Source: Brachycybe producta (taxonomy: Eukaryota; Arthropoda; Diplopoda; Playtdesmida; Andrognathidae). From it: a DNA stretch of 64,000 nucleotides. Position numbers and translations under genes: made by a program. Position 1 is the first letter of the stretch, and the number at the start of each line of letters is the position of its first letter. Positions 5,560-63,364 of this stretch are shown here, in pieces. The notes below the pieces were generated by a model that did no database searches, was not told the DNA's origin, and saw nothing but the letters and a program-made list of their open reading frames with translations. The DNA lies in the NCBI GenBank assembly GCA_036925085.1, contig JAUPFP010000036.1, forward strand, positions 2,170,001 through 2,234,000, read 5' to 3'.

Positions 5560-5875
5560 TCGTGAAATCGACAATAAATAATTTCATGTGTCTCCACATA
5601 ATAATACTAGTTAGCGACATCGTCTTTGTTAATTTCTTATTAGAAAGTGATGATGCTCATAAAAAGGGCGGGGCAAACAAAATTCTAATGCTGTGCATAG
5701 ATTCCTGTGTACTACGGTTATTTAGGGTTATTTTGTTGATATTTGGTCTGATGCTCATGAAGAGGGCGGGGCAAACGAATTTTTTGTGCAGGATCCAAAC
5801 ACCTGTCCCAACACTACACCTAACATAACTCTTTCTTTGTCTTATGTCAAGGTTGGTAGAGAGAAGAATCTAACC
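5560..5875. repeat. Degenerate palindromic/GC-box element upstream of FBXO42
   Basis: Two copies of TGATGCTCAT(A/G)A(A/G)(A/G)AGGGCGGGGCAAAC (5650 and 5751) relate this stretch to the MITE at 61405-61606. No gene is seen; the frame here is a repeat shadow. Confidence 0.5.
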
Positions 5876-8800
5876 CAACTAATCTAACCCAACACTAACC
5901 CACTAGCCTAACCTAACCTAACACCTTATACATGGACTCTATGTAATAGTTGATTGTAGCGCCCCTGTCTTCAAACATTTGAAACATTAATTAAAAAAGT
6001 TCTATGTTAAAAATCCTATACCTCCAAAAAAAGTTTTTGCTTTTTAGCAAAAAAATTTTAATGGAGACGGTGGCTCCATCTACTTTGGCTGAGTTTTTTA
6101 AAATTTTTTTTATTGGTTTACATATTGTTAAACAATTCATAAGTATAATTTATTAAGAGGGCTTTCACAGCTTTGAGTTTAGCTGATGTGTTAACATCAC
6201 GGCAATCTTAGCTGGAGGTCTCAGGTTCGAGCCTCAGCTATGTCTGTTTATTTTTTTTTAATTTCTAAAATTATGGGAAAGGCAACTGCTAATTGGTTTG
6301 TTGTGTGGTTGACGTTGAAAAGGGTGGAGCATGTGACATCAAACTACATAACCAACCAATTAGAAGTTGCCAGTCCTCATAAAAAGGGTGGGGCAAACGA
6401 CTGTATCTTGCTGTCTTTACTTGCATGTAACACTAACCCACTAACTTAACCCAACACTAGCCCACTAACCTAACCTAACCTAAGACCTTATACATGGACT
6501 CTATATAATAGTTGATTGTAGTGCCCCTGTCTTCAAATATTTGAAACATTAATTTAAAAAGTTCTATGTTAAAAATCCTATACCTCCAAAAAAAGTTTTT
6601 GCTTTTTGGCAAAAAATTTTTAATGGAGACGGTGGCTCCATCTACTTTGGCTGATTTTTTTTAATTTTTTTATTGGTTTACATATTGTTAAACAATTCAT
6701 AAGTATAATTTATTAAAAGAGCTTTCACAGCTTTGAGTTTAGCTGATGTGTTAACATCATGGCAATCTTAGCTGGAGGTCTCAGGTTCAAGCCTCAGCTA
6801 TGTCTGTTCTTTTTTTTTAATTTCTAAAATTATGGGAAAAGCAATTGCTAATTGGTTTGTTGTGTGGTTGACGTTGAAAAGGGCGGAGCATGTGACATCA
6901 AACTACATAACCAACCAATTAGAAGTTGCCAGTCCTCATAAAAAGGGTGGGGCAAATGACTGTATCTTGCTGTCATTACTTGCATCTAACACTAATCCAC
7001 TAACCTAACCCAACACTAGCCCACTAACCTAACCTAACCTAAGACCTTATACATGGACTTTATGTAATAGTTGATTGTAGTGCCCCTGTCTTCAAACATT
7101 TGAAACATTAATTAAAAAAGTTCTATGTTAAAAATCCTATACCTCCAAAAAAAGTTTTTGCTTTTTGGCAAAAAATTTTAATGGAGACGGTGGCTCCATC
7201 TACTTTGGCTGATTTTTTTTAATTTTTATTTATTGGTTTAAGGATTGTTAAACAATTTATAAGAATAATTTATAAAATGTGCTTTCACTGTTGTCAACTT
7301 AGCTGATGTGCTAACATCCATGCTTTGTTAACTGGAGGTCTCAGGTTCGAGCCTCAGCTGTGGCTGTTAGATTTCTTTTTTTTTAAATTTCTAAAATTAT
7401 GGGAAAAGCAACTTCTAATTGGTTTGTTGTGTGGTTGACGTTGAAAAGCGCGGAGCATGTGACGTCAAACTACATAACCAACCAATTAGAAGTTGCCAGT
7501 CCTCATAAAAAAGGTGGGGCAAACGACTGTATCTTGCTGTCTTTACTTGCATGTAACACTAACCCACTAACTTAACCCAACATTAGCCCACTAACCTAAC
7601 CTAACCTAAGACCTTATACATGGACTCTATGTAATAGTTGATTGTAGCGCCCCTGTCTTCAAACATTTGAAACATTAATTAAAAAAGTTCTATGTTAAAA
7701 ATCCTATACCTCCAAAAAAAGTTTTTGATTTTTGGCAAAAAATTTTTAATGGAGATGGTGGCTCCATCTACTTTGGCTGATTTTTTTTAATTTTTATTTA
7801 TTGGTTTAAGTATTGTTAAACAATTTATAAGAATAATTTATTAAATGTGCTTTCGCTGTTGTCACCTTAGCTGATGTGCTAACATCCATGCTTTGTTAAC
7901 TGGAGGTCTCAGGTTTGAGCCTCAGCTATGTCTGTTAATTTTCACTTTTTTTTAATTTTTAAAATTATGGGAAAAGCAACTTCTAATTGGTTTGTTGCGT
8001 GGTTCGACGTTGAAAAGGGCGGAACATGTGACTTTTGACTATATAACCAACCAATTAGAAGTTGCCAGTCCTCATAAGAAGGGTGGGGCAAACGACTGTA
8101 TTTTACTGTCTTTACTTGCCTGTAACACTAACCCACTAAAATAACCTAACCCAACACCTTATACATGGACTCTATGTAATAGTTGATTGTAGTGCCCCTG
8201 TCTTCAAACATTTGAAACATTAATTAAAAAAGTTCTATGTTAAAAATCCTATACCTCCAAAAAAAGTTTTTGCTTTTTGGCAAAAAATTTTTAATGGAGA
8301 CGGTGGCTCCATCTACTTTGGCTGATTTTTTAAAATTATTTTTATTGGTTTACATATTGTTAAACAATTCATAAGTATAAGTTTTTAAGAGGGCTTTCAC
8401 AGCTTTGAGTTTAGCTGATGTGTTAACATCACGGTAATCTTAGCTGGAGGTCTCAGGTTCGAGCCTCAGCTATGTCTGTTTATTTTTTTAATTTCTAAAA
8501 TTATGGGAAAAGCAACTGCTAATTGGTTTGTTGTGTGGTTGACGTTGAAAAGGGCGGAGCATGTGACGTCAAACTACATAACCAACCAATTAGAAGTTGC
8601 CAGTCCTCATAAAAAGGGTGGGGCAAACGACTGTATCTTGCTGTCTTTACTTGCATGTAACACTAACCCACTAACTTAACCCAACACTAGCCCACTAACC
8701 TAACCTAACCTAAGACCTTATACATGGACTCTATGTAATAGTTGATTGTAGCGCCCCTGTCTTCAAACATTTGAAACATTAATTAAAAAAGTTCTATGTT

Positions 8801-10890
8801 AAAAATCCTATACCTCCAAAAAAAGTTTTTGATTTTTGGCAAAAAATTTTTAATGGAGATGGTGGCTCCATCTACTTTGGCTGATTTTTTTTAATTTTTA
8901 TTTATTGGTTTAAGTATTGTTAAACAATTTATAAGAATAATTTATTAAATGTGCTTTCGCTGTTGTCACCTTAGCTGATGTGCTAACATCCATGCTTTGT
9001 TAACTGGAGGTCTCAGGTTCGAGCCTCAGCTATGTCTGTTAATTTTCACTTTTTTTTAATTTTTAAAATTATGGGAAAAGCAACTTCTAATTGGTTTGTT
9101 GCGTGGTTCGACGTTGAAAAGGGCGGAACATGTGACTTTTGACTATATAACCAACCAATTAGAAGTTGCCAGTCCTCATAAGAAGGGTGGGGCAAACGAC
9201 TGTATTTTACTGTCTTTACTTGCCTGTAACACTAACCCACTAAAATAACCTAACCCAACACCTTATACATGGACTCTATGTAATAGTTGATTGTAGTGCC
9301 CCTGTCTTCAAACATTTGAAACATTAATTAAAAAAGTTCTATGTTAAAAATCCTATACCTCCAAAAAAAGTTTTTGCTTTTTGGCAAAAAATTTTTAATG
9401 GAGACGGTGGCTCCATCTACTTTGGCTGATTTTTTAAAATTATTTTTATTGGTTTACATATTGTTAAACAATTCATAAGTATAAGTTTTTAAGAGGGCTT
9501 TCACAGCTTTGAGTTTAGCTGATGTGTTAACATCACGGTAATCTTAGCTGGAGGTCTCAGGTTCGAGCCTCAGCTATGTCTGTTTATTTTTTTAATTTCT
9601 AAAATTATGGGAAAAGCAACTGCTAATTGGTTTGTTGTGTGGTTGACGTTGAAAAGGGCAGAGCATGTGACGTCAAACTACATAACCAACCAATTAGAAG
9701 TTGCCAGTCCTCATAAAAAGGGTGGGGCAAACGACTGTATCTTGCTGTCTTTACTTGCATGTAACACTAACCCACTAACTTAACCCAACACTAGCCCACT
9801 AACCTAACCTAACCTAAGACCTTATACATGGACTCTATGTAATAGTTGATTGTAGCGCCCCTGTCTTCAAACATTTGAAACATTAATTAAAAACGTTCTA
9901 TGTTAAAAATCCTATACCTCCAAAAAAAGTTTTTGCTTTTTGGCAAAAAATTTTTAATGGAGACGGTGGCTCCATCTACTTTGGCTGATTTTTTTTAATT
10001 TTTATTTATTGGTTTAAGGATTGTTAAACAATTTATAAGAATAATTTATAAAATGTGCTTTCACTGTTGTCAACTTAGCTGATGTGCTAACATCCATGCT
10101 TTGTTAACTGGAGGTCTCAGGTTCGAGCCTCAGCTGTGGCTGTTAGATTTCTTTTTTTTTAAATTTCTAAAATTATGGGAAAAGCAACTTCTAATTGGTT
10201 TGTTGTGTGGTTCGACGTTGAAAAGGGCGGAGCATGTGACGTCAAACTACATAACCAACCAACTAGAAGTTGCCAGTCCTCATAAAAAGGGTGGGGCAAA
10301 TGACTGTATCTTGCTGTCATTACTTGCATGTAACACTAACCCACTAACTTAACCCAACATTAGCCCACTAACCTAACCTAACCTAAGACCTTATACATGG
10401 ACTCTATGTAATAGTTGATTGTAGCGCCCCTGTCTTCAAACATTTGAAACATTAATTAAAAAAGTTCTATGTTAAAAATCCTATACCTCCAAAAAAAGTT
10501 TTTGATTTTTGGCAAAAAAATTTTAATGGAGACGGTGGCTCCATCTACTTTGGCTGATTTTTTTTAAATTTATTTATTGGTTTACATATTGTTGAACAAT
10601 TCATAAGTATAATTTATTAAGTGTCTTGCCACAGTTGTCTGTTTAGCTGATGTGTTAACGTTGCTGTTTTCTTAACTGGGGGTCTCAGGTTCGAGCCTCA
10701 GTAATTTCTGTTGATTTTCGCTTTTTTTAAATTTTTAAAATTATGGGAAAAGCAACTTCTAATTGGTTTGTTGCGTGGTTCGAGGTTGAAAAGGGCGGAA
10801 CATGTGACTTCAGACTATATAACCAACCAATTAGAAGTTGCTAGTCGTCATAAAAAGGGCGGAGCCAACATGTATTCGTCCCGATTTCTA
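5876..10890 (+). repeat. Satellite array, right block: about nine units of 545-569 bases
   Basis: The landmark CATGGACTCTATGTAATAG starts at 5931, 6493, 7052, 7619, 8164, 8723, 9268, 9827 and 10396 (two copies with one or two changes), so units are 562, 559, 567, 545, 559, 545, 559 and 569 bases long. Unit order: CCTAA-type telomere-like runs; the landmark; a constant block with GGAGACGGTGGCTCCATC; a tRNA-like segment with a B-box; a palindrome with inverted AACTTCTAATTGGTT ends enclosing GGGCGGAGCATGTGAC; GGGTGGGGCAAACGACTGT; then back to CCTAA. Units alternate in type: the 7619 unit matches 8723, 8164 matches 9268, and 7052 matches 9827, a two-unit higher-order repeat of about 1104 bases. 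Open frames of 60-85 codons in it are repeat artefacts. Confidence 0.92.
6161..6246 (+). repeat. tRNA-derived (SINE-like) segment inside the satellite unit, representative copy
   Basis: Resembles a degraded tRNA gene with RNA polymerase III boxes: an A-box-like TTTAGCTGATGTG near 6178-6190 and a good B-box GGTTCGAGCCT at 6224-6234, about 45 bases apart as in a tRNA. Acceptor-stem pairing is poor, so it is not called a working tRNA. Equivalent copies lie near 6727, 7290, 7868, 8408, 8968, 9513, 10075 and 10640 on this strand, and near 1640, 2225 and 2770 on the other. Confidence 0.6.
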
Positions 10891-15667: not shown

Positions 15668-21992
<6,325 letters not shown>

Positions 21993-22169
21993 ATAAAATA
22001 GACAAATGTGTATTATATCAAAAAAATTGGTGGTTTTTGCTTTATATTTCCCCCCTCACCATCTATTTATCTTTTTTTTTGCCGACACAACACTCGAATC
22101 CCATTGGTGCAATTTAACCTGCATTACGTCATCAAAGCCACAGTTTTTATTTCGGAAAATTTTGTTTTA

Positions 22170-27695: not shown

Positions 27696-28172
27696 GCTTT
27701 AAATAGTGGTTTTTGTATTATTATTATGTACATTTATTATTTGCATAAAACGCACATTTTTTTTATAAATTTTTATTTGGATAAATGTTTTCATCTAAGT
27801 TATTACTGGTTCCATGCAGAGAGAGAGAGAGAGAAACATAAAAATGTTGGAATTTTATGTCGATTCATCATCCTTCCTCATTTAATATATACAATTGTAC
27901 AAGTGACATTATTTTTGTCTTATTGTAGTTGTCGTCCTTGTCATCAACAAAAACAACAACAATCTATTTAAAAATCGGTCATTTGACCAAAAATAACCGA
28001 CCTTCATTTTAAAATTATAATTTAATTTGTTATTGTTTTTGTTTCTACTTCATTTCAGTTTAAAAACGTCCATCTGTTCGGATGATTTTTTTGTTATCTA
28101 TCAAAAATGTTTATAACATTTATTAAGTTTTATTTTAAAATGGGTTTCAGATTTTACGAATATCTGAAGGGA

Positions 28173-31100
28173 ATGGAAAGTGATGTCCATCCGACATCGG
28201 TGGCCGTCGGTTTAATTTCGGCCGAAGAAGACGACAAACTTTCCTTACTGTCCAGCGAACAAGTGGAACAAGGTGGAATTCCAGTAGGAGTACAACCGAA
28301 TCCAGATCTAACGACAATTGCAGCTAACGATGATGTTTGTAACGAAGTAATCTGTAACGGTTTCGATTCTGGTCGTCGTACGTCGAGTGACAGTACGACA
28401 AAAGATCGAGGAAATTCCAGTGGCATCGATGGTGTCGCTTGTCACGTTCGGTACAAACAGAACCGTGATGGTAGTGTTGGTGGTACGGTGGAACCATCTG
28501 ACGGTTTAACCGATGATGGATTGGCCGCAGCTGCTTCGAGACTCGATTTCCTGCAGACTTTCGTTGCAGCTGTCGTCGTAGGAACGGCCACCATTCTAAC
28601 TGTACTCTTTCCGAACGTACTTCTGGCCGCAAATGATGAAAGTGACGCATATTGTTCGCTCTTCTTTACATCTTTTGCTTGTTGGCTCGCAACGACGTTC
28701 ACCGTTGTCGTTGCGAGATTGTACAAGATTGACATCTCTTTCAAAAGTCCCATTCCTACCGAAAGAATTGTCAAGTTGGGAATGTATTATGGACTGAGTG
28801 GATTGGCAATTTTTTATGGCCGTGATCGTTATCGTGTCCTCTGTCACCTGCAGGATCCGTTGGCTGCAGTCGTTTTACCTGCGGCAGTCGTGTGTCACTT
28901 GTTCTTCAGTTCCAAAGGTTGAAAGAAAGCAAAACTAATTGGCATTTGAACTTCAACTTGAATCCTCAATACAAGGTTCCAACTAGACACCGAAATGGGC
29001 TTTCATCCAATCTCGTCCCATCCCAGGGTTTGGGATATAACTAAACAAAAATTGGTGGGACTGAGGGGATGGCTGCGACGCCGTGGGACTGATGGGACCC
29101 ATCGGATGGGATGAAATCTAAATGGCACGGGAATCCGGGATGGGATGAGACCAAAATTTGTCTCCACTTTTGGTCTCTATTCAAAGTCGGTTCAAGTTAA
29201 GGTGGTTTTTCAGTGTAATCGCCTCTGGATCTCTTGATTATTCTATTTCAGGTGTAAAATGAAAAGAAACTTGAACGTGTTTTAGAAACTAGAAGGATAG
29301 CTTAATCATTTAAGGGTACTTTCATGTTGATATCTTTCAAAATAAACTTTTTATAGAAAAAAAATTTAAAAAAAAATATTGTCTGCTTGAAGTTGGCTAT
29401 TTTTCAAACTCACATAAAAAGTTTATTTTGAAAGATATCAACATGACAATATCCTTAAGTAATTGAGCTACCTTTCTAGTTTCTAAAATGCATTCAAGTT
29501 TCTTTTTCAATTTGTATCTGAAAGACAAAAATAATCAAGAGTTGAAGAGAGAGGCTTTTACACTTTAAAACCATCTTACTAGTGTGTACATTCCAATGTT
29601 GCAAACTTTCAAATGGTTCTAGAAACCAAACTGTAATTTGGAATGTCGTGAGATTTACATTAATACCTGAAGAACATGCATAATAAGGAATGCACAACAA
29701 TTTTAAAGCCAAAAGATGTTTTTGAAGAACCAGAAAGAGGTTGTTACCAAAGTGGATCTTTTTGAGTTCAAAGGATTTTAACATGGGTTCAGCAAATTAG
29801 CATAATTAAAAAAAGATATAAAATAAAAAAACACTTCGAATTTTGCAACCAAAAGGCCTTATTTCCTGACAACTTAAGAAGAGATTGCAACTTTAATTAT
29901 TGTTTTTTAAACAAAGTTTGAAGAGAGATTTGTTGTCAAAATTGAGGCCATGTTTTTCTTTGGAAACGTCATGTTTCGCTTAACATTGCGTTTATGGCGC
30001 CATGCAGTACGTGCACGTGCTTTAGTGTATATATTCTATAGAGGCTGCCACTTAAAGTTGAAAGTTTAAATGGTAAATTTGCTCACAAAATGGTGCCAAT
30101 TGTTTTATTTTTTATTTTTGCAGTGGACGGTATTCGTAAGCTGGTTTGCATTGCTGGGGCCATCGTCGGTCTCTTCATCTGTGTTGATTTTCAAATCTGG
30201 GATGAATTTAGTTGTCACGGTCACATTATTACGACCACTGCCGCAGATGGAATGTCTTGGAGTCCTAACGAACACGCTGTTTGGTCCATAGTCTATTTGA
30301 TCGGTTTGGGATTGTTTGCACTTTTCTTCACTCTTTTAGAAAAGACCATCAAAGGAGACAAAGTTGGTTCATTTTGAACTTGTTAATTTTAATTTTTAAA
30401 ATGTTTTATGTTCGTTTGAACTTTGTGGTTATTTTGTGGGTTTCAAAAAAGAGAAATGGGAATGTGTGATAAAAACTAGAACGGGTAACTGAATCACTTA
30501 CGCGGATATCTTTCAATTTTATTTTTAAAAAAAATTAAAAGAAATAATATTATGTTTTGTTTAAAATTTGAATCTGTGTTTTAGAAGAGCAACACTTAAG
30601 AAGAAGTTAATAGTGTCTTAGAAACTAGAAAGGGTAGCCGAATCACTTAACAGTGGGCCTATTTTCTTTTTGATAACTTGATATTTTTTAAAATAAACTT
30701 TTTATAGACTAACATAAAAAGTTTATTTTGAAACACATCAACATGAAAATACCCTGAAGTTACTCTTCTAGTTTCTAAAATTTCTGAATCATTGAAGTGT
30801 TTTCATGTTAATATTTTGCTTCTGAAAGGCAAATTAACAAAAGTTGACGAGGCGTTTTGACACGTTAAATCCACCTTAATTTATTCTTTTGTTAATTTTT
30901 CGTGTTTGTTAAATAGACTGAATGTGAAATAACTACGATTCCACTTTCACCTCGTGAAGGAACTTCGGCAAATGTATCTGTTATCGAAGATCCGACATCG
31001 GTGCCGTACGTTCAACATTCGTCCAAAATTCCGAATCTTACTTTCGTGAGTCTTTGAAAAAAAAAAGGCGAATGATGTTTCTTAATTCTAATAGTGAATT

Positions 31101-32165
31101 GACTTTTCTTTTTCAGGCCCAGACTCTTGTTTTGTGTATGTGGGTTCATTTGGCTTCTTTTGTAACCGTAACGGCTCTTTTCTGGACCGATTTATTCACT
31201 TTTCTTGGAAAGGTATACTTTAATAATACTCTTAACTGAGGAAATTCGTAATGTGGTACAGTAACATAATAATTAACTGTATTGTCCCACATTTCGAGGT
31301 TACTTTTTGGAAGTTTTTATTTTGAACAGCGGATTTTCAAACTCTTGATTTTTCTGTCTTTCAGAAGGGTAGGTCAATTACTTACGGTTATTTTCATGTT
31401 GATATCTTTCAAAATAAACTTTTTATGGATAAAAATAAAAAAAAAATGCTGTTTGCAAAGTTGGATCATTTTCAAACTGACATAAAAGCTTATTTTAAAA
31501 GATACCAACATGAACATATCCTTAAGTGATTTAGCTACTCTTCTAGTTTATAAAACATTCAAGTTTTTTGTCATTTTGTATCGGAAAGACTGAATAATCA
31601 AGTGTTCGCGGGCTGTTTTCACTTTAAAACCACCTTAAGCACTTTTACGAAGCAACCTCTTAAAGTTGTACACTAACATAAACAATCAACAGTTTTGTCC
31701 CACTTTTCGAGTTTACTTTCTATCATAAAATTCCATCCCGTTCTTTTGATTTTTGGAAATTTTTTAATTTTCTTTTGTTTTCAGGCTGGATCGACGTCAG
31801 CGTTTTACAAGATGATGATTAGTGGATTCGGTTGTTTCATCGGTATCGGAGATAATTGCTCGAACAAAGCCAGTCTCGCTTGGACTTTCGTCGTCTTCTA
31901 TTGCGTTCTTTTCGTAGCCATCGTCTATCTAATTGTTGTTTCGGTCAACTGTAGCATTCCTTACATAATCGCCGTACTAACCCTTGCTCTTCCCCTCAGT
32001 ACCCTTTGGTGGTCTTTCTTTCAGACAGGAGACGGATTCTATTGGTTTCCGATGTTTACCGGTGAGACTGGATTTGCCGTAGTTGGATTCCCGATAATGA
32101 TAACGGCGGTCATACTTTATCGACATTACGCAAACAGAGACAGAATTTGTATTATCGAAGCGTGA
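28173..32165 (+). CDS. Multi-pass membrane protein, DMT/EamA transporter-like
   Basis: Five exons: 28173-28917, 30124-30362, 30917-31045, 31117-31212, 31785-32165; all introns GT-AG with consistent phase, giving about 529 residues. An acidic, serine-rich N-terminal region of about 120 residues is followed by around ten hydrophobic helices, for example FLQTFVAAVVVGTATILTVL, YCSLFFTSFACWLATTF, KLVCIAGAIVGLFICVDF, AVWSIVYLIGLGLFALFF, and in the last exon ITAVILYRH. Two clusters of helices separated by a loop with acidic and proline residues suggest the 5+5 layout of the drug/metabolite transporter superfamily. I do not recognise the exact family, so no substrate is given. In-frame ATGs at 28107 and 28140 also exist, but TTTCAG at 28150 suggests an intron ends there, favouring 28173. 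The final codon GCG TGA overlaps a donor-like GTGAGT; using it would add only one residue before a stop at the next acceptor. Confidence 0.75.
29198..29578. mobile_element. Family B palindromic element, reference copy
   Basis: 381 bases. Ends TTAAGGTGGTTTTTCAGTGT and, inverted, TAAGATGGTTTTAAAGTGT. Then CTCTTGATTATTCT against AATAATCAAGAG, TAGAAACTAGAAGGATAGCT against AGCTACCTTTCTAGTTTCTA, and TTTCAAAATAAACTTTTTAT against its inverse. It lies in intron 1 of the membrane-protein gene. No transposase frame. Confidence 0.88.
30470..30890. mobile_element. Family B copy (intronic)
   Basis: Contains a duplicated left portion (AAAACTAGAACGGGTAAC and TTAGAAACTAGAAAGGGTAGC), then ATAAACTTTTTATAGACTAACATAAAAAGTTTAT and the right half ending ATCCACCTTAA. 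In the intron between 30362 and 30917. Confidence 0.75.
31360..31640. mobile_element. Family B copy (intronic)
   Basis: GATATCTTTCAAAATAAACTTTTTATGGAT pairs with the inverted CATAAAAGCTTATTTTAAAAGATACC; ends TTTTCACTTTAAAACCACCTTAA. In the intron between 31212 and 31785. Confidence 0.75.
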
Positions 32166-35650: not shown

Positions 35651-36107
35651 ATAATTAGTTAAGTAGCCCACAATTGATGTTTTTTTCTATGTTGTGACTC
35701 ATATGGCACTCAATATTTATACAATCCTAAGTTGACTTCAACTCAAATGTTATTTACCAATATTGATGCTTAATATTGATTGATAACTGTGATGATCGAT
35801 CTAATCTCTCTTGTGTAATTAATTGTCTAATTAAATGTTTTTATGATGACGAAAACTGAATTAAGAACACATTTTTTGATCGAATTTTACTGAGAGATTT
35901 TGTTTCTTCTCTTGGTCTCATCTGACAAAAAATTCTTTTGTTTCATTTATCCAAAGTTAACTTTTGGAATAAATTGAAAGTTTGTTAGAAACTAGAATAG
36001 TATATCAATTAGTTAAGATTTTTTTGTGATAATAAACGTTTGACCGCAGTTTAAAAAATGATGAAAAAGAGAAAAACCGATAATAAACATTTTCTCAAAC
36101 TTTCATA

Positions 36108-36915
36108 AAGGTGGAATTACACCGGCGGTAACATTGTTGAAAACACGTACGTGTTATTAGCAATGTTTTTAACAAATATTAAAAAATAGGTAAAACTGTT
36201 ATTAACTTTTGTTAACAACATTTGTTGATAACAGTATCATAACATTTGATATTAACGTCGTTAAATGTCTCTAGAAATGTTAATAACATTTTCCTATTAA
36301 TTTTTGTCATTAACATTTGCTTTCAGCATTTGTTATTTTTTTCTATTAACATGTTGACAATATTGTTGCTAACTTTGTTAATAGCATGAGGTTTTTGTGA
36401 GCGCTCTGGATGCGGTCATGATCAAAGAATCTTGGATAACATAATGTTACTAACAAGTTATTTCTATTGTCAACGCTGTTAATATTGTCAGTAATGTTTT
36501 TGACAAAAATGTTGGTAGCATGTCGGCAGGAAGCTGATCCACGAGTTTAATGTTATTAACAGTGTTGACAACAGAAATAACTTGTTAGTAACATTTTGTT
36601 ATCAACATACTTTGATCAGAACTGCCTCCAAAGAGGTTGCAAAATTTCTGTTATTAACAAAGTTAGCAACAATATTATCGACATGTTTATGGAAAAAAAA
36701 ATAAATGCTGAAAGCAAATGTTATTGAGAAAAAGTTAATAGCAAAATGTTATTAACATTTCTAGAGATTAGTAACAATGTTAACAGCAAATGTTATCAAC
36801 AAATGCCGATAACAAAAGTTAATAACAATATATAGGCCGATTTTTAATATTTGTTAAAGCATTGTTAATAACACGTGTTTTTCAGCAATGTTATTTCCGG
36901 TGTAAATCTACCTTT
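36108..36915. mobile_element. Family E palindromic element, long copy
   Basis: Ends AAAGGTGGAATTACACCGG and, inverted, AAAGGTAGATTTACACCGG, followed by GTAACATTGTTGAAAACACG against CGTGTTTTTCAGCAATGTTA. The interior is a dense run of GTTAATAAC, AACATTTG and TTGTTAATA motifs on both strands. 808 bases, no coding frame. Confidence 0.85.
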
Positions 36916-37356: not shown

Positions 37357-40300
37357 TTAAGGATCTACGAAAGAGACCATAATGTAACGAGTGCCGCTAA
37401 TTGTAGGAAGACCCTCGTGGTAGTGAGTGAGTCGACCGGGGTGCATCAAAGTCCAACCCATACGAGAATCGGTTACGCTGCAGTTGTATCTAACGAAACG
37501 GCAGCCACCTCCCTAAGAAAATAACCGGGGAAAAAAAACTCATCAAAGTTAACAAGAGTAAATAACGAAACGCATAAGGATTGTTCTCGTTCTTCGAAGA
37601 CGTACTTCATAGTCGATGTTCGGTCTGTTGAGAGCAATATTGATTGTATACGTTGACGAATCATGATGAGGTCTAAGCGCTGGCTGTTCATTTGGCTTGT
37701 ATCTCACTACAAAGTTCATCTGAGCTTGAGGAGGCTAAAATTAGAAGACAAATTTGAATTTACATGGTTGCTTGGTTGCTATTCTTTAGAATAATGATAA
37801 TTAAAAGTACATTTTTTTACTCTTTTAAAATAGTTTCCATGAGTTTCCCTAATTTTTTTTTTAATAAAAATGACAATTATCCCTCCCTTTCTAGCTCGGT
37901 AAGAGCCCTGTATTCGTATCATGTGTCTTTTAACACACGGTACGGATACAGAAACTTAACGAATTCAAACGCAATAACGTACGTCATGGAAGTAACCGGT
38001 GTACGCCCTCTCTTGTACTGGTCGAACGTATTCCCTGAGGAAATACAACCACTGCTGATCAAAAGCAACTTGATTCATGTGAATGTCACGAGTCGGAACG
38101 TTCTCATATCCGCCGTCCAAACGATCATCCTTTCAATTGGATAACAAAAAAATTCTGATTTAGCGAACCGATCTATAAGATGGAATGTCACCTTTCAAAC
38201 GTACTTGATTGGAACCGTCAGACCATTGTCCGAAATGTTCCATCATTTCGATCAGTTCTTTACAGAAACGAGGAGTTACGATGGGAAACCAATAAACGTC
38301 GGGACAAGGCTTTAATAAACGAGAACATTAACAATTAATATAATTTAAAAACAAAGTTGCAGATTCGTAATTTTACCATATCTAACTGGTAGGACGGATC
38401 GAGATTTTTCGTGTAGTTGTCATGAATGTATCTCCGTTCCCAGTCCTGCGATTACAAACAGAAACAAATTTTTACATGATCTATCTTACCAAGGGGCCAA
38501 AAAAAAACAGAACTTACTAGACGATTATCGAAGATCTGATACATTTCGGGATTTTTCAATGCAGGATTGAATGTTTCGGTGTTAATCAAATGTCCAAATT
38601 CTTCGACGTTCGTAACATGCATGAAAATACCCTTAAAAATCAATAAAATACAAGGAATAGTTATGAATGGGTATTTTTGCTACGACTGCGTTCGTAGTCA
38701 AAAGTGTCGAACTACAAGAACGGGTTAAATTTTACAACTTGTATTATATACCTTATCACGAAGATTATAACAAAATGCCATATCTGCATCCAGTAGATTA
38801 TGAATAAAAGATGGAATTGTTTCCTTGTTGTTAAGTAATGATCCCTGAACAAGGTAGATGGCAGAAACAAAAGGAACATTCCAAACACCACTGAAATTAC
38901 AAAAAAGGTTTAAACAGTCTCAATGAATATGTTGTCCACAAACACACAAAAATCTAGCATATTTAGTACTTTAGCAGATTAACATCCAATCTACTAAAGC
39001 GTTACTGTGCAATGAAGTGAGGCACTTGTCAACATTATCCTGAAAATTATCCTTAAATCGAAGGTAAAGTGAGGTTAAAACAAAGCCTTTGAAACTTTAT
39101 ACTGGACCCAACCTACAAAGTGTATCAAAACCACTGGGACATCCAAAGCCCAACATATATATATGCTCAAGAAGCTCACAAAAAGTTTATTTTTAAAAAT
39201 ATTACTAAGATTTTTAGTTTGCTTCTGAAAAAAAATTTACTATATTTACTCTAAAACTACTGTTTTCAGCCATTATATTATCAGTACTTTTAAATATCCA
39301 CGAGGACATCATTAGCACGGAAATTTTCCTAAGAAATGAGGGTTTTATTTGATAATGTTTCCGTCAATTACGATCTGTTAGCTATATGAATTCAGCATAT
39401 AAATTGTTCACACATACATTATACTGACACAACATTAATTGAGATCTACACTTTTATTAATTTCAACTTCCTTATTTAAGCCAAAAAAGAATAAACAATA
39501 AAATTGAACATAATGTGGTCGCGACCACATGTGTTCGTATAAAAGAAAGATTTAGCGAAAAGGCGACAAGCGTGAAAAATCAGCCGCATTTCATTAGCAA
39601 CAGTCGTCGAGACAACAGTTTAAAAAAAAAAACCATCATGCAAGTTTCGAAGAAAGTTTACGTCTGTGTCGCAGCCTCGACATTGATCTTAGTATCGTGT
39701 CTCGTTGACACTGTCCTGTCTCAAAGAGGCAAAGGACGTATACGTGGACGACTGAATCCAAAAGGTACCATGGTAACAACGTACAACCAAGACGCCAATT
39801 CAAAAATGGAATATTATAACAATCCATTGGTATGTTAATATGGACAGCCACTAGAAGAATACGAAAAAATACCGAAATCCTTTCTTATTTTTTTTTGGGG
39901 CAATTAACTCGACAGGGAGCAAAAATCGTAAAGGCGTCTCATTTTGATCTCGAGTACACTCTCGGAGATAAAGTTACGTTCCTGTGCGAAGCGCAAGGAG
40001 ATCCGAACCCACACATCATATGGTTCAAAGACGGATTGGAATTGTACGCACATCCTTATTTGCAGGTTAGCAATTGTACGATAAGATACACGCCATAGGG
40101 GAATTAATTGCGAGGAAGTTAGTTCATCGGAGGTTTTTTTTTTTTAATAATGAGGATGTTGTAAATTTACGCTTACATCCTTACGAAGACAAGGAAAAAG
40201 TTTCTCTTAATCTATGTTGCCACTTTTGTTTCTTCAAAGTTACACGAATGGAAGATCGGAGTTAACGTTACAAAAAGCAAAATGGAGATCGATCCCGCAA

Positions 40301-43300
40301 CTCAAATGGACGCCGGATTGTACGAATGTCACGCACACAACAAATACACGATAGATCGGCGTACGTTCAAAGCAGATTTTGCCGTCGAAGACTGAAAAAA
40401 GCAATCTAGTGTAGTAGAATTAGTACCGTATACGTGTGAATGTACCAATTCGTATATATTAAATTGTATATGTTATAATATGTAATAAAATTTATATAAT
40501 TAATTTTGAAGCCTATTTCTTGTTGTGGTGACAACATTTTCATCTTCCTGGCAATTGATTTTTCACTAAAGTGGAACGCTTGCCCTACAGAGTCTAGCCA
40601 AGTTAACCTAATACTATTTGTCCTAAAGAGAGACACTTTACCAAAAGAAAGGTGTTGGTCTAAAAATATCTGTCGTATTTTTATAGGTGTGGGACATTTA
40701 CCCTATAGATAATTGCCCTAATCTGGTTTGACCTAAAGAGACACTTTCCTAAATGCTTTTTTTCCCAAAAGAAAAAATATTTGCAACTGCGGTTGATTTG
40801 AATGGGTGTTGGGGAATCGTGCCCTACATATTTCGAAAATTGTGAACGTAATAGAATAGTTGTTAGATAATTAACAATTTTACTTGTAGACCTACGAGAG
40901 GTAGGTCTACAATTAAAATAGTCAATTATTAGCTGGAACGGATTAGTACACGAGCGTATATCTTTTGAAAATGATAAAATACAAACTTATTCCTTATTCC
41001 AAAATTATTCCTTAAAATTTAACTTTGTATTAAAATTTTTTTTTTTAAAAAAAATTGTCAATTAAACTTAAATCTATTGCTAATATTTGTTGTGAGCCTA
41101 AATTGCATTAACACAAAAAATAGGATAACAAAACATCAGATAACACGAAAAATCGGATAAACCGAAACATATTTTCGGTCCGATCTCTAAGAATAGCTTA
41201 AAATTTTTTTCTTTTAACACGAAAAAATATATTTCGGTTCCCTTCCATTTCGTGTTAAACAGTTTCAACATTACGTATATTTTCTTTATACACTAACTCC
41301 TCCTCTCGATAAAAAAATCTCATGTTAATTAAGCAGACTTACCGACGATTATTGTTAACAATTTCCATGTAATCGCTGGACCTCGCATAAAAACCGTCCG
41401 GCGTTAAAGCACCCCAGAAATTAGACCAAACTTTAAACGGACGAAGCAACATCGGAGATAGGACAGATCTTGTTTTTTTTTTTTCAAAAAAATCAATACA
41501 TAAATGAATTTCCCGTCATTTGCTTTTATATAATAAATAATATACCTATTCTGTTCAATGAGCAATTTCAACGTTTTAGGATTCGTCAACATCACATCCG
41601 AATCAACAGAGAAATAATGATCGCATTTACGCTTGAAACATTCTTCGCTATAAAACAAAATGTACAATAATTATTGAAAACATCCGCCATTTTGGTTTAT
41701 CGCAAAAGAATTTACAGTCCACGGTTGCGTCCGTGCCATTCTTTTATGTTCTCTTCGGGAACCGTTTGAGAGACGCTGTTGTATTTGCTTTCATGGTTCT
41801 CGAGGAACTTTGCCACGTCCTCTTCATGATCTTCGACTCTGTTGTGAATGTAAAGATCGATTCTGTCCTTTGGATAAGAAAGATCTGCGATCCTCTCGAA
41901 GAAATCTTCCATGAACGGAGTCGGTTTCTCGATAAATAGCCCCATCGTCACTGTTGGATATTCGCTTGCCTAAATCGTAATAAACGATAAAAGTCGGTGT
42001 TAAAATCGAACAAAATCCACTTTCGTTGGTTTTTTGTTTAACAGCGAATTCGTACTTTAAACTGTTCGAGATCGATCTTATCTTCGGCACATTGCAAACA
42101 ACCGTCTGCAGGAGCCCAAGATTTTGCCAAATAATTTCCAATAGAATTCAATGAAACCTATTTTATATGCAGATGTTTACGATTAAATTTGTTCTTCTTT
42201 AACAAAAACAAACAAACAAAGGAACCTTATTTGGTCCGTTTCCGTGGACAACGACGGGAGTTGTACCGTAAGCTGTATTATAGAGAAATGCATCGTCATC
42301 TTTGAAACGAAGCTCGACGTCACCTTTAATTAGTTAACGAGAAAATTGTTTAAGGTTTACGATACATAAAAAGCAATTTTATAAAAGAAACCTTGAATTT
42401 TCAAAAAATTAATTAATTGAACTCTGGTTATTTAATATTTCATAAGCAATATTAAAAGAGAAATTTAAGCGTTTTTTTGTGTATAAATTAGAAGAGTAAA
42501 TGTATCAAGAGAATCATGATGATTTTTTATTTTTTATATCTTTCAAATTTATTTTTTAATAGCAATATCAAATTTTCCTTTTTCACTTCAAAGTTAGGTT
42601 AAAAATAGGAAACTAAAAACTTGGCCACTTTCAAACTGCCATAAAAAAAGTTGATTTTTAAAAACATCCTGTGACATTAGTACACCATGCAGACATTTAT
42701 TTACTTTTCTAGTTTAAAATAATAATAAAATAACGTCACACACTGTCGCCCTTAAAATGACATGAAAGTGACGAAAAATTCAATTCCGAATGAAAAAAAT
42801 AACCTACCCACAGCTCCATTAAGATTCTGAAAGATATCGGCTTTGTGATCCAATTTGATGTTCAGTTTCTTACGTACATCTTCGTCCAAATAGATTTTTG
42901 TGTAAAACAGTTGATCGTCGTCAGAATTCGCAATTTCAGAACTCGTTATCATTGAATATATTTCAGGTGCATAGCCAATGAAGCCTTTTGAAACATACAA
43001 TTCGATAAAATAATTAAAAATTACAAAGATTTAGAAATAATGTCTTCATAGATACAAAAGACAAAAAACACAAGAGACTCTCATCATGCTGTTAGTCTTC
43101 CAAGGATGCGTTAAAATACATGCCTAAGAAAAAAAAAAGTGTTAAGCGGCTTGTTAACTTACCTGTAAATGAAACAGGAAGTTCTAAGACAGACACACAG
43201 ACACATAACACCAGAGAATAGCCGCATGCGAAACCAATTGACCAAAACCATTCGAAGGTAATATATGTACAGAAATTCAAATTAGATACGATTCCAATTG

Positions 43301-46300
43301 AGAATCTTCTCTCAGAAAACCTCAAAATAATTGAGGAAATTATTAATTCAAAAGAAGTTACTTTTTTTCTTAAAAAAACAGACAACCAGTAACTTTTGTT
43401 TTAAAGTAACTGGCAAGTTGTAACTGACTGGTAGTAACTTTTATCTAGACCCTAACTGATAGCCAGAAACTTGAACTCTCGAAACCTTAAACCATTTACT
43501 TCGGCTACTTTCATCCTTAAGTAAGTCGGCAACTAGTAACTTCAGCTACTGCAGTACCTACCAATTTGTAACTTGAATCACTTTTGCTCCAAAAGTAACT
43601 GACAGAAAGTAACATATCTGAAAACTATTAAGTCAGAAACTAGAAACACCAAATTTTAAACCATTTACTTCAGTTATTTTCACTCCAAAGTAACTGACAA
43701 CTAACAACTTGAGTTACTTTCACTCCAAAGTAACCGCAAAACTTGTAACTTGTTACTTTTGTACCAATGTAACTGACAGCAAGTAACATTTCCCGAAAAC
43801 TAACTGATGACCAAGAACTTGAACTTTTACTTTAGTTATTTTCCCTTGAAAGTAACTGGCAACTAGTATTTTGAGTTACTTTCCCAGTTTCACTAAAAAG
43901 TTACTGTCAACTAGCAACTTGAGTTGCTTTCACTTCAAAGTAACTGGCAACTTCTAAAAAGTTACTTTCACTTCACAGTAACTGGTTATAAAAATAAATT
44001 TGACTCCCATACGATAATTATCAATTAGTAACAAGTAACGTTTCAATCAATGTTAGTAGAATTTTTTTTCCCCAATTAATTATGAAAGTGCAATAAAAAA
44101 AAAGATTTATTTAGAAAGAATGAAAAACTGACCTCCGGAGTTAAGAAATCGTTTTCCCTTTTCTACTTTCGGATACGTGTCCTATAAATTAACGAGAAAA
44201 TATTATTTTAAGTGATCAAACCGTAACCCAGTTCAATACCCACGGTTAATTTCGCATCGGGCCAACAGAATCCTTCAGCCGAGAAAAGAATCTTCGATTT
44301 ACTTTGATCGAACTTCTTTACTATTCTTTCGGCTCCGGCCAACAGAATCACATCATAACTGCTTTTTTTAAAATCAGATCATCAATTTGAATTAAATTAC
44401 AACAATTAAAAACATTAAAACGAAGAAAGAAAAGAAGAAAAAAAACATTTCGTAACCATTTCACGGAAGAAAAACTTGCCTGTCTAGAAAAAGAATTATC
44501 TTCTCTTTAGAATCCTTCAGATTTTCCAGTTCTTTCTTAAGAAGATTCACTTTGTGTCCTCCACCAGCGAACCATTTAACATTTCCTCCTTCCCACTTTT
44601 CATTCATTCCAAGCACCTTTTTTCATGAAAATCAGACAACAAAAAACACATCCATCAGTTGTCTACAAAAAAAGTACTAACTCAGTTTTCTCTTTTCATT
44701 TCTGTTGTTTTCAATAATTCCAGGCTGTGTGTGATTTACAATTTTTCATTTTAAAAAAAGTCTGTTCATAGAAATATGAACAAACACAATGAAAACTCAT
44801 AAATTTCCATTCTTTATTATAAATTTCTGTCTGTATTTTTCATTTTGTCATTTTTCTTTTACCTTGTGACCCACTTTTTTTTTTTCATTCTTCAAAAAGA
44901 ATTTAAATTATAATAAACTTCTCTCTTACCTGTTAGTATTTTTTTTATCTCTCTTAAAAGTTCTTTGTTGTTAACATTGTTTTGTTAAATTAAAAAAAAA
45001 TGCTAATTTTTAATTAGTTAACTAATTAGTTATTACCTTAACATTTAAGTTATAAACTTTTGCAGATCTCATAAATCTCTTGAATCCATCTGTTTCATTT
45101 GTTGCAACCGTAATAATTAAGAGATTGTCATCTGAATAAAAAAACAAAACAAAAATTAAAATCTCTCATTAGTAAAACTAATTATTAATGTAACACAAAC
45201 ACGCAGTGTAATAGATATTTACATAAAAACATATCAAAATATATTAATAAAACACAATTTGTAAATTTATGCGTGATTATAATAGATATAAAAAAAAATT
45301 ACGCAATGGCTTTTGCAGCACAGTTCATTTGTCGACTTCGCAAGTTCACATTCAAGTTGCCATCAGCTGAGCAATTTACAAGATTGTCAGTTGATTAACA
45401 GACCTAAACTTAACCTTAATGCAGAACCTACATCAGGTAACCTTTTACAAAGTGCTCAAAGTTTTGTTTATGTACAATTAATGTGTTTTTAATAATGTGT
45501 TTTGTTTTAAAAAAAAGCAAAACAGTAACTTTAGGTTTATTTTTTAGAAGTAACTTTACCCTTTCAAAAAGTTACTTTTAAAAGAAAGAATTGGGATAAC
45601 TGTTGAGTTACTTTTCAAAATAACTGCAGTTAATTTTGTTCAGGGTTGAGGGTTTTAGTTGGCTTACGACTGGCTCAGGATTGTTGACTCAAATGTTCAA
45701 TTACTTATGAAATTACTCTTAAATCCTTGCCACATTGATCACTACTTTTTAGTGACTGAATTAGACTGCAAAATGAAGTCGGTGTGTGGAAAGGGTCCGG
45801 CGTCTTTCCTTAGACGCAACATTGCAACCACAGACTTACTATACATGCAGGTGGTCGTTTTCGACTTCATAAGCCGCTCGTGTGCAAAGAAACAGCGTCT
45901 AATTTCCATTGCAATGCATTGCAACCACAGCTCAGCCACTTGTGACAACATTTTGCAGTCGAACACGACCATTAAAAAGTGGTTCGTGTGCCCAAGGCTC
46001 TTAGTGTTTTGTAATAATTAAAAAAAGCAACTTTATGATTACTCTTTAAAAGTAACTTTTGATTACTCTTTGAAAAGTAACTTTTGATTACTCTTTGAAA
46101 AGTTACTTTTTAAATGAAAGATTACTTTGGAGTTTACTGTTAATTGATTCAGCGTTGGAGTTCGTTTTGGAAGTAACTGGGATTACTATTGGACTCTTGT
46201 GTTCAGTTACTTATGAACTTAATCTTTAAGTGTTTTGTAAAGTAACTGTAGGTCTTTCTTTAGAAGTAACGGGTATTATTGTTAAGTTACTTTTGGAAGA

Positions 46301-48938
46301 AACTTGGATTATTGTTGACTCACTGTTAAGTTACTTTTTTTAAGGATTCTTTTGAGTTACTTCCTGATATATTATTATTGTTTCTTTATCTTTTGTTGAA
46401 GTAATTAACATTTAATTACTTTGATAAGAATAGGTGCTACTCTCTGAAACTATGGTACTGTCATTTTAAAAAAGAAGTAACTTTTATTTGTTTTGTAACT
46501 ATAGTTACTTGAATTTTTATTTTATATATAAGGGTTTTAAATATTTCAATTAACTTTATCAGAAATTTAACTTTGAAAAAAAAAAAAAAACCTGTCCCAG
46601 TCAGTTACTTCAGTTAACTTCTAAACTTGTTAACTTTCAACCAAATCAACCTGACAAATGTGACATTTTTCCACTTGTGTAAAGTATTCGTGTGTATGTT
46701 GTGTACGTGACACGTATCATAGGAAGTGATAGATGTATGACCTGACACAAACGTGAAGGAGGTCATGCATCATTGAATGTTTTCAGTGTATGTTAACTCA
46801 TCGTGAAAAAGAAGGAACCAGGATCCGCTAGAATGAGTCAAATGAATGTTCTAAATTGCTTATAATAATAATAATTAGTTTTATATATATATATTTGTCT
46901 GTCTGTCTGTCCGGCCTTTTTTTTATCTCCTTCCTTATACAGTACACAAAATAACTCGACCTCAACCTCTCTCTCTCTCTTCAGCAGTTTTTTATTGACT
47001 GAAACCTAGATATTTTTTGTTTTGTTTATTGCAATGTCTGTGATTTTGCATTTGAATGTGGGATGTGTGGCCCCAGTGTGAACTGACCTCTTATTCCATA
47101 CAAATGACCCAGAAGCTGTAGGTGTACAATTACGTGTTCATGTTACGTTTGACCAGAAGGGAGAGAGAAAAAAAAAAAACCTCCCAAAACCTAAAAGGCC
47201 TGTTTTTTTTTTTAAAGCGAAATGGTTCAATAGTTGCTCTCATAAGCGCATCTGATAAAGAGCCACATATTTAAATGAGAGGGCAAACAAAATCCATTGT
47301 AGGCCAAGGGCCACCTTCAGGCATAATTTAATTTGGAACTTCCCGATATCGTTTTTTTTTTAAAAATAAAATATTACTTGTAATGTCAAGGTTGGAAAAA
47401 CCAAAAAGAAAAAAAAAGCTAATTCAGTTTAGATCCGTTTCTCATAAGTGAACCTGGTTAGAGAGTATAGTTATAGTAGTGACCATGCATGTAATGCTAT
47501 CTTTATAGCCTCTAACCAGATTTTATGTGTGAAAAATGTATTTATAATTTTTACTTTACTTATTATGGGTAAGTAAGATAGGGGTTTTATAGCAATAGGT
47601 TTCTCTACCCGTGGCTTAAGTTTTATTTCTTTATTCACCGATTTATTCATCAGTGTGACGTCACACCATTTATACCGTCATTTATATAGCCGTGACGTCA
47701 CACCACTTGGTAGATCGATGAATATCAGAATGGCTGATAATTATTTTTAAAAACATTAAAAAATTAACACAGACTACACACGATCAATTCTGTTTTGTCT
47801 ATTCTTTGAATTTCTTTTGAAATTTTACGTGGGTTGCGCCTATTTTTTTTTTTTTAAAACTAATTTCTCATTTTATCCATCATTGCAAAGCATTACAATT
47901 TTTTTAAAAAAAATGTACATTTCCACGCCCAGGATTGACAGGCCAAAAATTGATCGTGTGTATCCGACCTTAAGGTAGGCACAGACGATCAATTTTACCT
48001 TGTCCATTCTTTGATCTTCTGTTCAAATTTTATGTCGACAGCGCCTATTTCTTTCTTTTTTTTTTTTTAACTAATTGCTCATTTTACCATCATTATAAAG
48101 CAATTACTATTTCAACAACATTCCACGCCCAGGATTGACAACGTAAAATTGATCATATGTACCCAGCTTTACACTCTGAGCCACCAGTTGAGAATTACTT
48201 GCCATAAAAATCTGATTCCTTCTCTTCGCTTTTTTTTTCATTTGAAATACAAACATAAACAACGATAAAAACAGTACATCTGAACAAATTCTAGAACTTT
48301 CTAAGAACCAAATTTTTTTTAAAAAAAAGCTCACCGATTAATCATTCCGTTGCATCGACTATCGAACTATGACGTCAGAGTCGATTGCAACGGATGAGTT
48401 TATTTTTTAAAAAAACGTGCCATTTCATCATATAAACTCATATCATCCCCACCTCCCAATATGATCTGTAATAAAAAATAAAAAATCTCGTTGCCTAGCA
48501 ACGGCCAAGGGACGAATGAACTCTTGCTAGAGACACGTGGACTGCCGCTCCTCCAGCGGTCACCAGCGAACAGAGGATAATGACGTCATACAACGTGAGG
48601 ACATAGAAGTGGGTGGTTTAATACGGAAGGCGAGGGAGGAAAAAAACGGGGTTTTACGCGCACGTGGTTGTCAATTTTGATTGACTGCACTGCATCTTTT
48701 TTTTGTTGATGATGATGAACAATTGATGAAACCATTGAAATATTAATAATAAATATATATGTATTTAAATCTGCTTACTTTTTGCGTTTGAGGTTTCCTT
48801 TGAGTTTACAAGTGAAGTTTCGAGAATAAGAAGAAATGTAATCAGAGCTAAAGAAAGCCATACAAGGCCATGGATTAGTTGTAGAAATCCTTCACCACCT
48901 CCTCTTCTGCTTCTCCTTGATGCCATAGTTGATAGCAT
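37357..48938 (-). CDS. PLOD: Procollagen-lysine 2-oxoglutarate 5-dioxygenase (lysyl hydroxylase)
   Basis: An Fe(II)/2-oxoglutarate enzyme of the endoplasmic reticulum that hydroxylates collagen lysines; family members may also glycosylate hydroxylysine. Eighteen exons on the minus strand: 48938-48779, 45131-45037, 44616-44480, 44358-44244, 44181-44133, 42984-42808, 42323-42226, 42157-42056, 41969-41716, 41647-41546, 41468-41343, 38890-38752, 38631-38518, 38445-38377, 38309-38205, 38129-37983, 37734-37606, 37512-37357. Together they give 757 residues in perfect phase. The N-terminus is charged, then hydrophobic ([14 protein letters not shown]). The glycosyltransferase-like part shows [23 protein letters not shown] and HGNGPNK; the middle [11 protein letters not shown] and VWSNFWGAL; the dioxygenase [21 protein letters not shown] (iron-binding H and D) and [18 protein letters not shown] (iron H, 2-oxoglutarate R), ending FVDP. 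Exon 3 uses a GC donor (GCAAGT at 44479). One gene here; orthology to a specific vertebrate PLOD1-3 is not assigned. Confidence 0.97.
39638..40395 (+). CDS. oig-4: Secreted one-immunoglobulin-domain protein, oig-4 type, nested in PLOD intron 11
   Basis: Exons 39638-39829, 39916-40065, 40240-40395; GT-AG, in phase, 165 residues. A signal peptide ([17 protein letters not shown]) and a short basic tract ([10 protein letters not shown]) precede a single Ig domain: [20 protein letters not shown] holds the first cysteine, IIWFKDG the core tryptophan, and [20 protein letters not shown] the second cysteine. The order and wording match the OIG-4 family of small neuronal/synaptic Ig proteins known from C. 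elegans and Drosophila, where OIG-4 helps organise acetylcholine receptor clusters at the neuromuscular junction. No membrane anchor or GPI signal is seen at the C-terminus. The gene lies wholly inside PLOD intron 11 (38891-41342) on the other strand. A poly(A) signal follows. Function here is inferred from the family. Confidence 0.88.
40484..40489 (+). terminator. Poly(A) signal of the oig-4 gene (putative)
   Basis: AATAAA 89 bases after the oig-4 stop, within an AT-rich 3' UTR-like stretch. Confidence 0.6.
41090..41285. repeat. AACACGAAA/TTTCGTGTTAA repeat, PLOD intron 11
   Basis: AACACGAAAAATCGGATAA, TATTTTCGGT and CATTTCGTGTTAAACAG motifs recall 22170-22500. Probably a decayed transposon of that family. 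Confidence 0.5.
42440..42750. mobile_element. Family B-like degenerate copy in PLOD intron 6
   Basis: ATATCTTTCAAATTTATTTTTTAATAG, then GGCCACTTTCAAACTGCCATAAAAA, and ACTTTTCTAGTTTAAAATAA. A worn copy of the same palindrome. Confidence 0.45.
43385..44040. repeat. Degenerate AGTAACTG(G)CAACT array in PLOD intron 5
   Basis: More than twenty AGTAACT, GTTACT and CAACTTG motifs at irregular 15-40 base spacing fill the intron. A second array of the same flavour is at 45520-46640. Confidence 0.75.
45520..46640. repeat. Degenerate AAAGTAACTTTTGATTACTC array in PLOD intron 1
   Basis: Repeated AAAGTAACTTTTGATTACT (46030-46110 nearly perfect) and AGTTACTTTT motifs, interrupted at about 45760-45965 by a different inverted element. 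The 120-codon plus-strand frame at 45659-46021 is made of repeat and palindrome and is not called a gene. Confidence 0.7.
45761..45965. mobile_element. Small inverted-repeat element
   Basis: GACTGCAAAATG at 45764 pairs with CATTTTGCAGTC at 45949-45960; interior GTTGCAAT and ATTGCAAC motifs also pair. About 200 bases and more GC-rich than its surroundings. Likely a MITE inserted in the AGTAAC array. Confidence 0.5.
47769..48175. repeat. Two tandem copies of a roughly 200-base inverted element
   Basis: 47769-47970 and 47975-48175 share (A/G)CGATCAATTnTnnnTTGTC(T/C)ATTCTTTGA, then CCACGCCCAGGATTGACA. Each half has inverted ends, ACGATCAATTTTAC against GTAAAATTGATCATATG. In PLOD intron 1. A fragment of family C (GAGCCACCAGTTGAGAATT) follows at 48178. 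Confidence 0.7.
48347..48393. repeat. Hairpin with a central TGACGTCA
   Basis: CCGTTGCATCGACT and AGTCGATTGCAACGG form arms around a palindromic CRE-like TGACGTCA at 48370. In PLOD intron 1, about 400 bases from exon 1. Confidence 0.6.
48490..48502. promoter_or_regulatory. X-box (RFX-binding) like site in PLOD intron 1
   Basis: GTTGCCTAGCAAC, a perfect inverted repeat fitting the X-box pattern, 276 bases downstream of the PLOD exon 1 donor. Motif match only. Confidence 0.4.
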
Positions 48939-52674: not shown

Positions 52675-52975
52675 TGTCATGAATGACAAAGCGCTGAATA
52701 AGCGCCAAATGGAACAAACGCCAAACTGAATAACCGCCAAATTTTTGGCTTTTATTCAGTTTGGCGTTTGTTCAGTTTGGCGTTTGTTCAGTTTGGCGCT
52801 TGTTCCATTTGGCGTTTGTTCCATTTGGCGTTGGTTCCATTTGGCGTTGGTTCCATTTGGCGTTGGTTCCATTTGGCGTTGGTTCCATTTGGCGTTGGTT
52901 CCGTTTGGCGTTGGTTCCATTTGGCGTTGGTTCCATTTGGCGTTGGTTCCATTTGGCGCTTGTTCAGCGCCACCC
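52675..52975. repeat. 16-base minisatellite GTTCCATTTGGCGTTG with inverted head
   Basis: From about 52755 to 52970 the unit TTTGGCGTTGGTTCCA repeats more than ten times, with early units GTTCAGTTTGGCG. Upstream, 52690-52740 holds the inverse (GCGCCAAATGGAACAAACGCC), so head and array can fold on each other. Because the unit is 16 bases, all three frames are open on the plus strand and give the same repeating peptide in rotation. Confidence 0.9.

Positions 52976-55817: not shown

Positions 55818-63364
<7,547 letters not shown>

Follow-up and report, generated by a model that had tools for sequence, protein, structure and literature searches.

An OIG-4-like immunoglobulin gene nested antisense within intron 11 of the PLOD gene of Brachycybe producta

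The window analysed here, a 64,000-nucleotide stretch of contig JAUPFP010000036.1 of the millipede Brachycybe producta (positions 2,170,001 to 2,234,000), carries on its minus strand a gene for procollagen lysyl hydroxylase/glycosyltransferase (PLOD) and, within intron 11 of that gene and on the opposite strand, a complete three-exon gene for a small protein with a single immunoglobulin (Ig) domain, which resembles OIG-4. All coordinates are those of the window. The host gene is organised as follows (splice model):

48938-37357, minus strand: PLOD coding region, 18 exons, 757 amino acids
48938-48779, 45131-45037, 44616-44480, 44358-44244, 44181-44133, 42984-42808, minus strand: PLOD exons 1-6
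42323-42226, 42157-42056, 41969-41716, 41647-41546, 41468-41343, 38890-38752, minus strand: PLOD exons 7-12
38631-38518, 38445-38377, 38309-38205, 38129-37983, 37734-37606, 37512-37357, minus strand: PLOD exons 13-18
38891-41342, minus strand: PLOD intron 11, the hosting intron, 2452 bp

The end of exon 4 was set by inference at 44244 (donor GTGGGT) and not at 44241, where GG is found, which gives the protein of 757 amino acids; the splice model further contains a GC donor at intron 3. According to Pfam, the protein combines a GT_PLOD domain (PF25342, E 1.3e-114) with a C-terminal 2OG-Fe(II) oxygenase domain (PF03171, E 1.7e-10), and its alignment with human LH3 spans residues 53-757, up to the end of PLOD (E 4.2e-259). 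The Fe(II) ligands of LH3, which we take to be H667, D669 and H719, and its 2-oxoglutarate arginine, presumably R729, are aligned with H686, D688, H738 and R748 of the PLOD protein, whose catalytic residues are thus kept. The host gene is intact. Its introns have a median length of 93 bp (n=17); intron 11 is exceeded by intron 1 alone (3647 bp), and is delimited by a GTAAGT donor after exon 11 (ending at 41343) and a TTTCAG acceptor before exon 12 (starting at 38890). It is a phase 2 intron and separates the codons for NNNRR from those for GVWNVP.

The gene nested in this intron has the following exons:

39638-39829, plus strand: exon 1, with the start codon, a signal-peptide-like segment (hydropathy maximum at residues 9-23) and a basic linker
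39916-40065, plus strand: exon 2, first half of the Ig domain, with Cys88 and Trp100
40240-40395, plus strand: exon 3, second half of the Ig domain, with the DAGLYEC motif, Cys144 and the stop codon

Together these exons form a coding sequence of 498 nucleotides (165 amino acids) without internal stop, interrupted by two phase 0 introns with GT-AG ends. The whole coding sequence (39638-40395) is located within one PLOD intron, antisense to the host, with its 3' end pointing to the PLOD 5' end. The first-pass annotation had described a complete three-exon Ig gene antisense in PLOD intron 11, and the splice models agree with it exactly, both in the number of the intron and in its ends (38891..41342).

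The encoded protein contains a single I-set Ig domain at residues 74-153, with a Pfam E value of 7.6e-14 that is well past chance, the canonical Ig cysteine pair (Cys88/Cys144), Trp100, and one motif for N-linked glycosylation (N123). A hydropathy window found its sole hydrophobic stretch at residues 3-30, with no second, transmembrane or glycosylphosphatidylinositol (GPI)-type segment. Because this single stretch sits at the N-terminus, the protein is expected to be secreted, probably via a signal peptide. A single I-set domain with the canonical cysteine pair, a signal-like N-terminus, the lack of a transmembrane or GPI segment, and a length close to that of the Drosophila protein CG14141 (162 amino acids) are the features of the OIG-4 family. 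The best 60 of 127 PDB matches were all Ig-domain proteins (titin, Robo, PTPRD and others), none of them OIG-4. Size, architecture and locus support the assignment of the nested gene as a putative OIG-4 orthologue, and the linkage to PLOD in the fly, described below, strengthens it.

Copies of both genes were searched for in the 295.3-Mb assembly (442 contigs) to which the window belongs. The DNA of the nested gene matched nothing in this genome besides itself. The protein of exons 2 and 3 recovered its own two exons with strong scores, followed by nine Ig-like places with weaker scores (E 9.9e-6 to 6.2e-4), and the protein of exons 1 and 2 found no match in the genome beyond its own two exons. 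All five GT_PLOD places in the genome are exons of the 37357-48938 locus, and no further copy of the PLOD glycosyltransferase domain was detected; this count of PLOD copies rests on the glycosyltransferase domain. A retrocopy, which the first-pass annotation had thought unlikely, is ruled out by the two introns and by the absence of a second, parental copy in the genome searched. The nested gene had likewise to be considered as a pseudogene or a chance alignment of open frames, and these are ruled out by the three exons, the canonical splice sites, the intact frame and the I-set score, so that a degenerate or fortuitous origin of any of these kinds is hardly credible. Collections of prokaryote and viral contigs contained no relatives of the nested gene, as expected for such collections. 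GT_PLOD was found in 0 of 14 control genomes, of which the eight named ones are all prokaryotes, so this result is no test of conservation. Neither structured RNA (at Rfam gathering scores) nor tRNA (by ARAGORN) was detected in the window.

Several sequence features lie around the nested gene, the TATA box and the polyadenylation signal being identified by pattern matching:

39513-39530, unstranded: perfect 18-bp palindrome ATGTGGTCGCGACCACAT, ending 7 bases before the TATA box
39538-39544, plus strand: TATAAAA box whose first base is 100 bp ahead of the ATG, a candidate core promoter for the nested gene
40484-40489, plus strand: AATAAA whose first base is 89 bp past the stop codon, a candidate polyadenylation signal for the nested gene

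The initiator-like TCAGC nearest to the TATA box is at 39580, and an ATTAAA is also present at 40458. The palindrome contains two facing TGTGGT half sites, which we take to be Runx-like. It has no second copy in the 295-Mb genome at up to one mismatch, and the 64-kb window contains eight perfect 18-bp palindromes, so its presence is weak evidence. A bacterial promoter scan of 39400-39700 was uninformative here, with one site vs a shuffle mean of 1.0. Within intron 11, the stretch 5' of the nested gene (38891-39600) is nearly unique, with one 51-base match elsewhere in the genome. A dispersed repeat segment with copies on many contigs lies 3' of the gene, at about 41126-41296; the identity of its copies is roughly 69-85% (best 40 of 947 candidates scored).

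The evidence that the pairing of the two genes extends beyond this genome comes from Drosophila, and from one Gal4 insertion. NP5633 is placed at the 5' end of dPlod (CG6199) in one fly paper, and "just downstream of CG14141" in another (PMC4390571); the accessible text of neither paper names the gene of the other. CG14141 is a 162-amino-acid Ig protein described as almost certainly secreted, for whose Caenorhabditis elegans orthologue PMC5177635 refers to Rapti et al. 2011. The same reference is given for OIG-4 in PMC10121051, and because both papers point to it, the worm orthologue of CG14141 is taken to be OIG-4. CG7607, a homologue 50% identical to CG14141, occupies the adjacent interval. 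Since NP5633 is common to both placements, it follows from the two papers' statements that CG14141 and dPlod are immediate neighbours in Drosophila, CG14141 lying beside or within dPlod. The Ig gene is thus found in PLOD intron 11 in the window, and its fly counterpart, as read from the papers, next to dPlod. With a fly gene number of about 14,000, the chance of one given gene neighbouring another is about 2/14,000; because chance adjacency is this rare, shared linkage is likely, and the pairing seems to be of long standing and no accident. No printed statement of a PLOD/OIG-4 linkage or nest was found in the accessible part of the literature searched, which takes in few subscription journals.

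A location of NP5633 between the dPlod 5' end and the CG14141 3' end fits antisense nesting in the orientation seen in the window, and the dPlod locus, at 7.9 kb vs an mRNA of 2.66 kb, has room for guest genes. On balance, a CG14141 nested in dPlod seems the more probable arrangement in the fly as well. For the suggestion of the first-pass annotation that the nest may be an old arrangement, the dPlod/CG14141 linkage via NP5633 speaks indirectly, nesting in the fly being an inference.

Expression data for both genes exist in the fly. NP5633 drives haemocyte, fat-body and anal-pad expression in the dPlod paper, and astrocyte-like expression in PMC4390571. In S2 cells, CG6199, CG7607 and CG14141 are all among the 442 genes described as down-regulated 1 h after Drosophila C virus, an experiment in which 275 genes were up-regulated (PMC3704779). 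The first-pass annotation had pointed to possible co-regulation or interference in nested antisense pairs, and the common insertion line and the common S2 list hint at shared regulation in the fly. CG14141 is reported as enriched in fly astrocytes, and glial RNA interference (RNAi) against it raised activity (one line); RNAi against CG7607 is reported to give no behavioural phenotype. In a study of bee brain, oig-4 is listed with the genes that account for an enrichment seen, in the summer sample, within a glial cluster (PMC11544451). In the worm, OIG-4 is secreted by muscle (PMC10121051) and forms, together with LEV-9 and the LEV-10 ectodomain, an extracellular complex clustering levamisole receptors (PMC12881522, PMC10121051); the sites reported for worm LH3 are glial-like cells and the muscles of the body wall (cited in PMC3044864), and oig-4 lies on chromosome II (PMC10121051). 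By analogy with these proteins, the product of the nested gene is expected to be a secreted synapse- or glia-associated matrix factor.

We consider it likely that intron 11 of PLOD houses a complete gene of OIG-4 type, which is probably transcribed independently, and that its linkage to PLOD was inherited from before the split from Drosophila. Under this reading, transcription of the guest would run from a TATA promoter of its own, near 39.54 kb, to an AATAAA of its own, near 40.49 kb. The product would be secreted via its signal peptide and might act, like worm OIG-4, as an extracellular single-Ig matrix or synapse-organising factor. PLOD transcripts would cross the guest region antisense, and the region would be spliced out as intron 11. 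The pair would be kept mainly because departure of the guest would part it from enhancers spread across the host locus.

Several observations weigh against this account. The fly linkage was derived from two statements on one insertion, and not from a genome browser, and a CG14141 placed upstream of dPlod in tandem would fit NP5633 as well. The NP5633 expression patterns were recorded at different stages and in separate studies. It was the prior choice of the three gene names that led to the S2 list, and the collagen gene Cg25C is also in it, so that a shared haemocyte programme would explain the co-listing without any effect of the locus. The candidate initiator lies 42 bases from the start of the TATA box, which is further than usual.

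Part of this evidence would also suit a lineage-specific nesting, in which OIG-4 was ancestrally a mere neighbour of PLOD, and perhaps still is in the fly, and was put into intron 11 here by a local inversion or transposition, the nest being recent and neutral. Nesting in long introns is currently viewed as neutral, with 20-34% of nestings conserved among Drosophilidae (PMC3786989); the fly papers, as far as their accessible text goes, prove adjacency of dPlod and CG14141 and not nesting, and the dispersed repeat on the 3' flank of the guest indicates that intron 11 has taken insertions. On the other hand, the stretch 5' of the guest showed no repeat; the orientation in the window, in which the guest 3' end faces the host 5' end, agrees with what an NP5633 site between the dPlod 5' and guest 3' ends would predict for the fly; and the intron space of the fly locus could accommodate a guest. 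A recent nest thus appears unlikely, though it deserves serious attention. A bolder proposal is that PLOD and OIG-4 form an ancient arthropod, perhaps ecdysozoan, regulatory block, in which the nest would be hundreds of millions of years old, enhancers in PLOD introns would serve both genes, and both products would come from the same or touching matrix-producing cells (muscle, glia, haemocytes). This proposal arises from hints: the NP5633 patterns, the sites of worm LH3 and OIG-4, and the location of oig-4 on chromosome II, where we assume let-268, the worm PLOD gene, to lie as well. We regard so extensive a claim as doubtful, slightly more so than a recent nest.

It was also considered whether the two genes are coupled through their antisense arrangement, convergent polymerases or overlapping RNA making PLOD and the guest interfere or exclude each other by tissue. 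The gene anatomy implies overlapping opposite-strand transcription, and the fly expression domains, as reported, look largely different (haemocyte and fat body vs astrocyte). Yet the three fly genes drop together in S2 cells, and not oppositely (PMC3704779), and 752 fly host-nested pairs are reported to show no significant expression correlation (cited in PMC3786989), which makes such coupling quite improbable.

If the pair was kept from the arthropod of the window to Drosophila, it joins the few deeply conserved nests, and the fly tools for asking why it is kept already exist in published form: NP5633, RNAi lines for both Ig genes, and a deficiency. Phenotypes of this deficiency, Df(3L)vin66, which is described as removing dPlod and eight more genes, may involve both genes, and the same may apply to the use of NP5633 as a Plod or astrocyte driver. 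For annotation, synteny with PLOD could mark the OIG-4 orthologue among many Ig genes.

Other features of the window and its genome were recorded. Just past the PLOD 3' end, a fold-back repeat (36105-36915) shows a 78% match to its own reverse complement across 810 bases; it is one member of a dispersed family with 119 match rows on both strands, itself included (best 40 of 381 candidates scored). The region 5867-10386 contains telomere-like 24-base units, AACACTAACCCACTAACCTAACCC, at a spacing of about 560 bases or double that, which suggests a satellite array with TTAGG-like cores; minisatellites are found at 52744-52967 (16/32/48-base units) and 59587-59737 (29-base units). An open frame on the minus strand (21393-22055) encodes a partial glucose/sorbosone dehydrogenase domain (E 4.8e-8), and presumably resembles hedgehog-interacting-protein-like proteins. 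On the plus strand, three longer open frames (28086-28922, 30042-30377 and 31677-32165) encode hydrophobic stretches and lack a Pfam match at E 0.01; they may together make up exons of a single gene for a membrane protein. Throughout the genome, an eight-unit TTAGG pattern had 459 forward and 7077 reverse matches (overlaps counted); among the matches listed, arrays are placed near the start of contig C1. Arrays of this type indicate an arthropod, and speak against a dipteran. The mitochondrial contig C442 (15,359 bp, invertebrate code), whose cox1 was identified by Pfam and whose other genes were identified by frame reading, shows an apparently rearranged gene order: cox1 and cox2 are adjacent, with no trnL2 between them, nad6 follows trnE, and nad4L-nad4-nad5 are on the cox1 strand. 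Apparent nuclear copies of cox1 are present on contigs C1 and C17.

The nested gene resembles C. elegans OIG-4 as a single-Ig secreted protein, secretion being predicted for the protein of the window. With CG14141 and CG7607 of Drosophila it shares a small size (165 vs 162 amino acids for CG14141), an Ig domain and predicted secretion, but the fly has two adjacent copies, whereas one copy was found in the genome of the window. Nested genes as such are no rarity: they are reported to make up about 6% of fly genes, and are frequently antisense (PMC3786989). A close parallel is 2mit, described as an antisense guest of tim2 (timeless2) that lies in intron 11 of its host in flies and in intron 14 in the honey bee, and is absent from this position in four Lepidoptera (PMC3786989). 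As there, one intron of the host contains, on the opposite strand, a coding guest for which no functional relation to the host is evident; the nervous-system role of 2mit has a predicted counterpart in the guest of PLOD. Conservation was shown by genomes for 2mit/tim2, whereas here it is derived from one insertion in two papers. The metazoan nest of Mab21 in Lrba-Nbea (Tsang et al. 2009, via PMC3786989) likewise has an unrelated host and guest kept together for long. For that nest, an enhancer in the hosting intron is the proposed cause, and conservation of the enhancer was shown; for PLOD and its guest, the NP5633 pattern is the only hint of this kind. The PLOD/OIG-4 pair is another antisense nested pair of a known type, with a claim to deep conservation.

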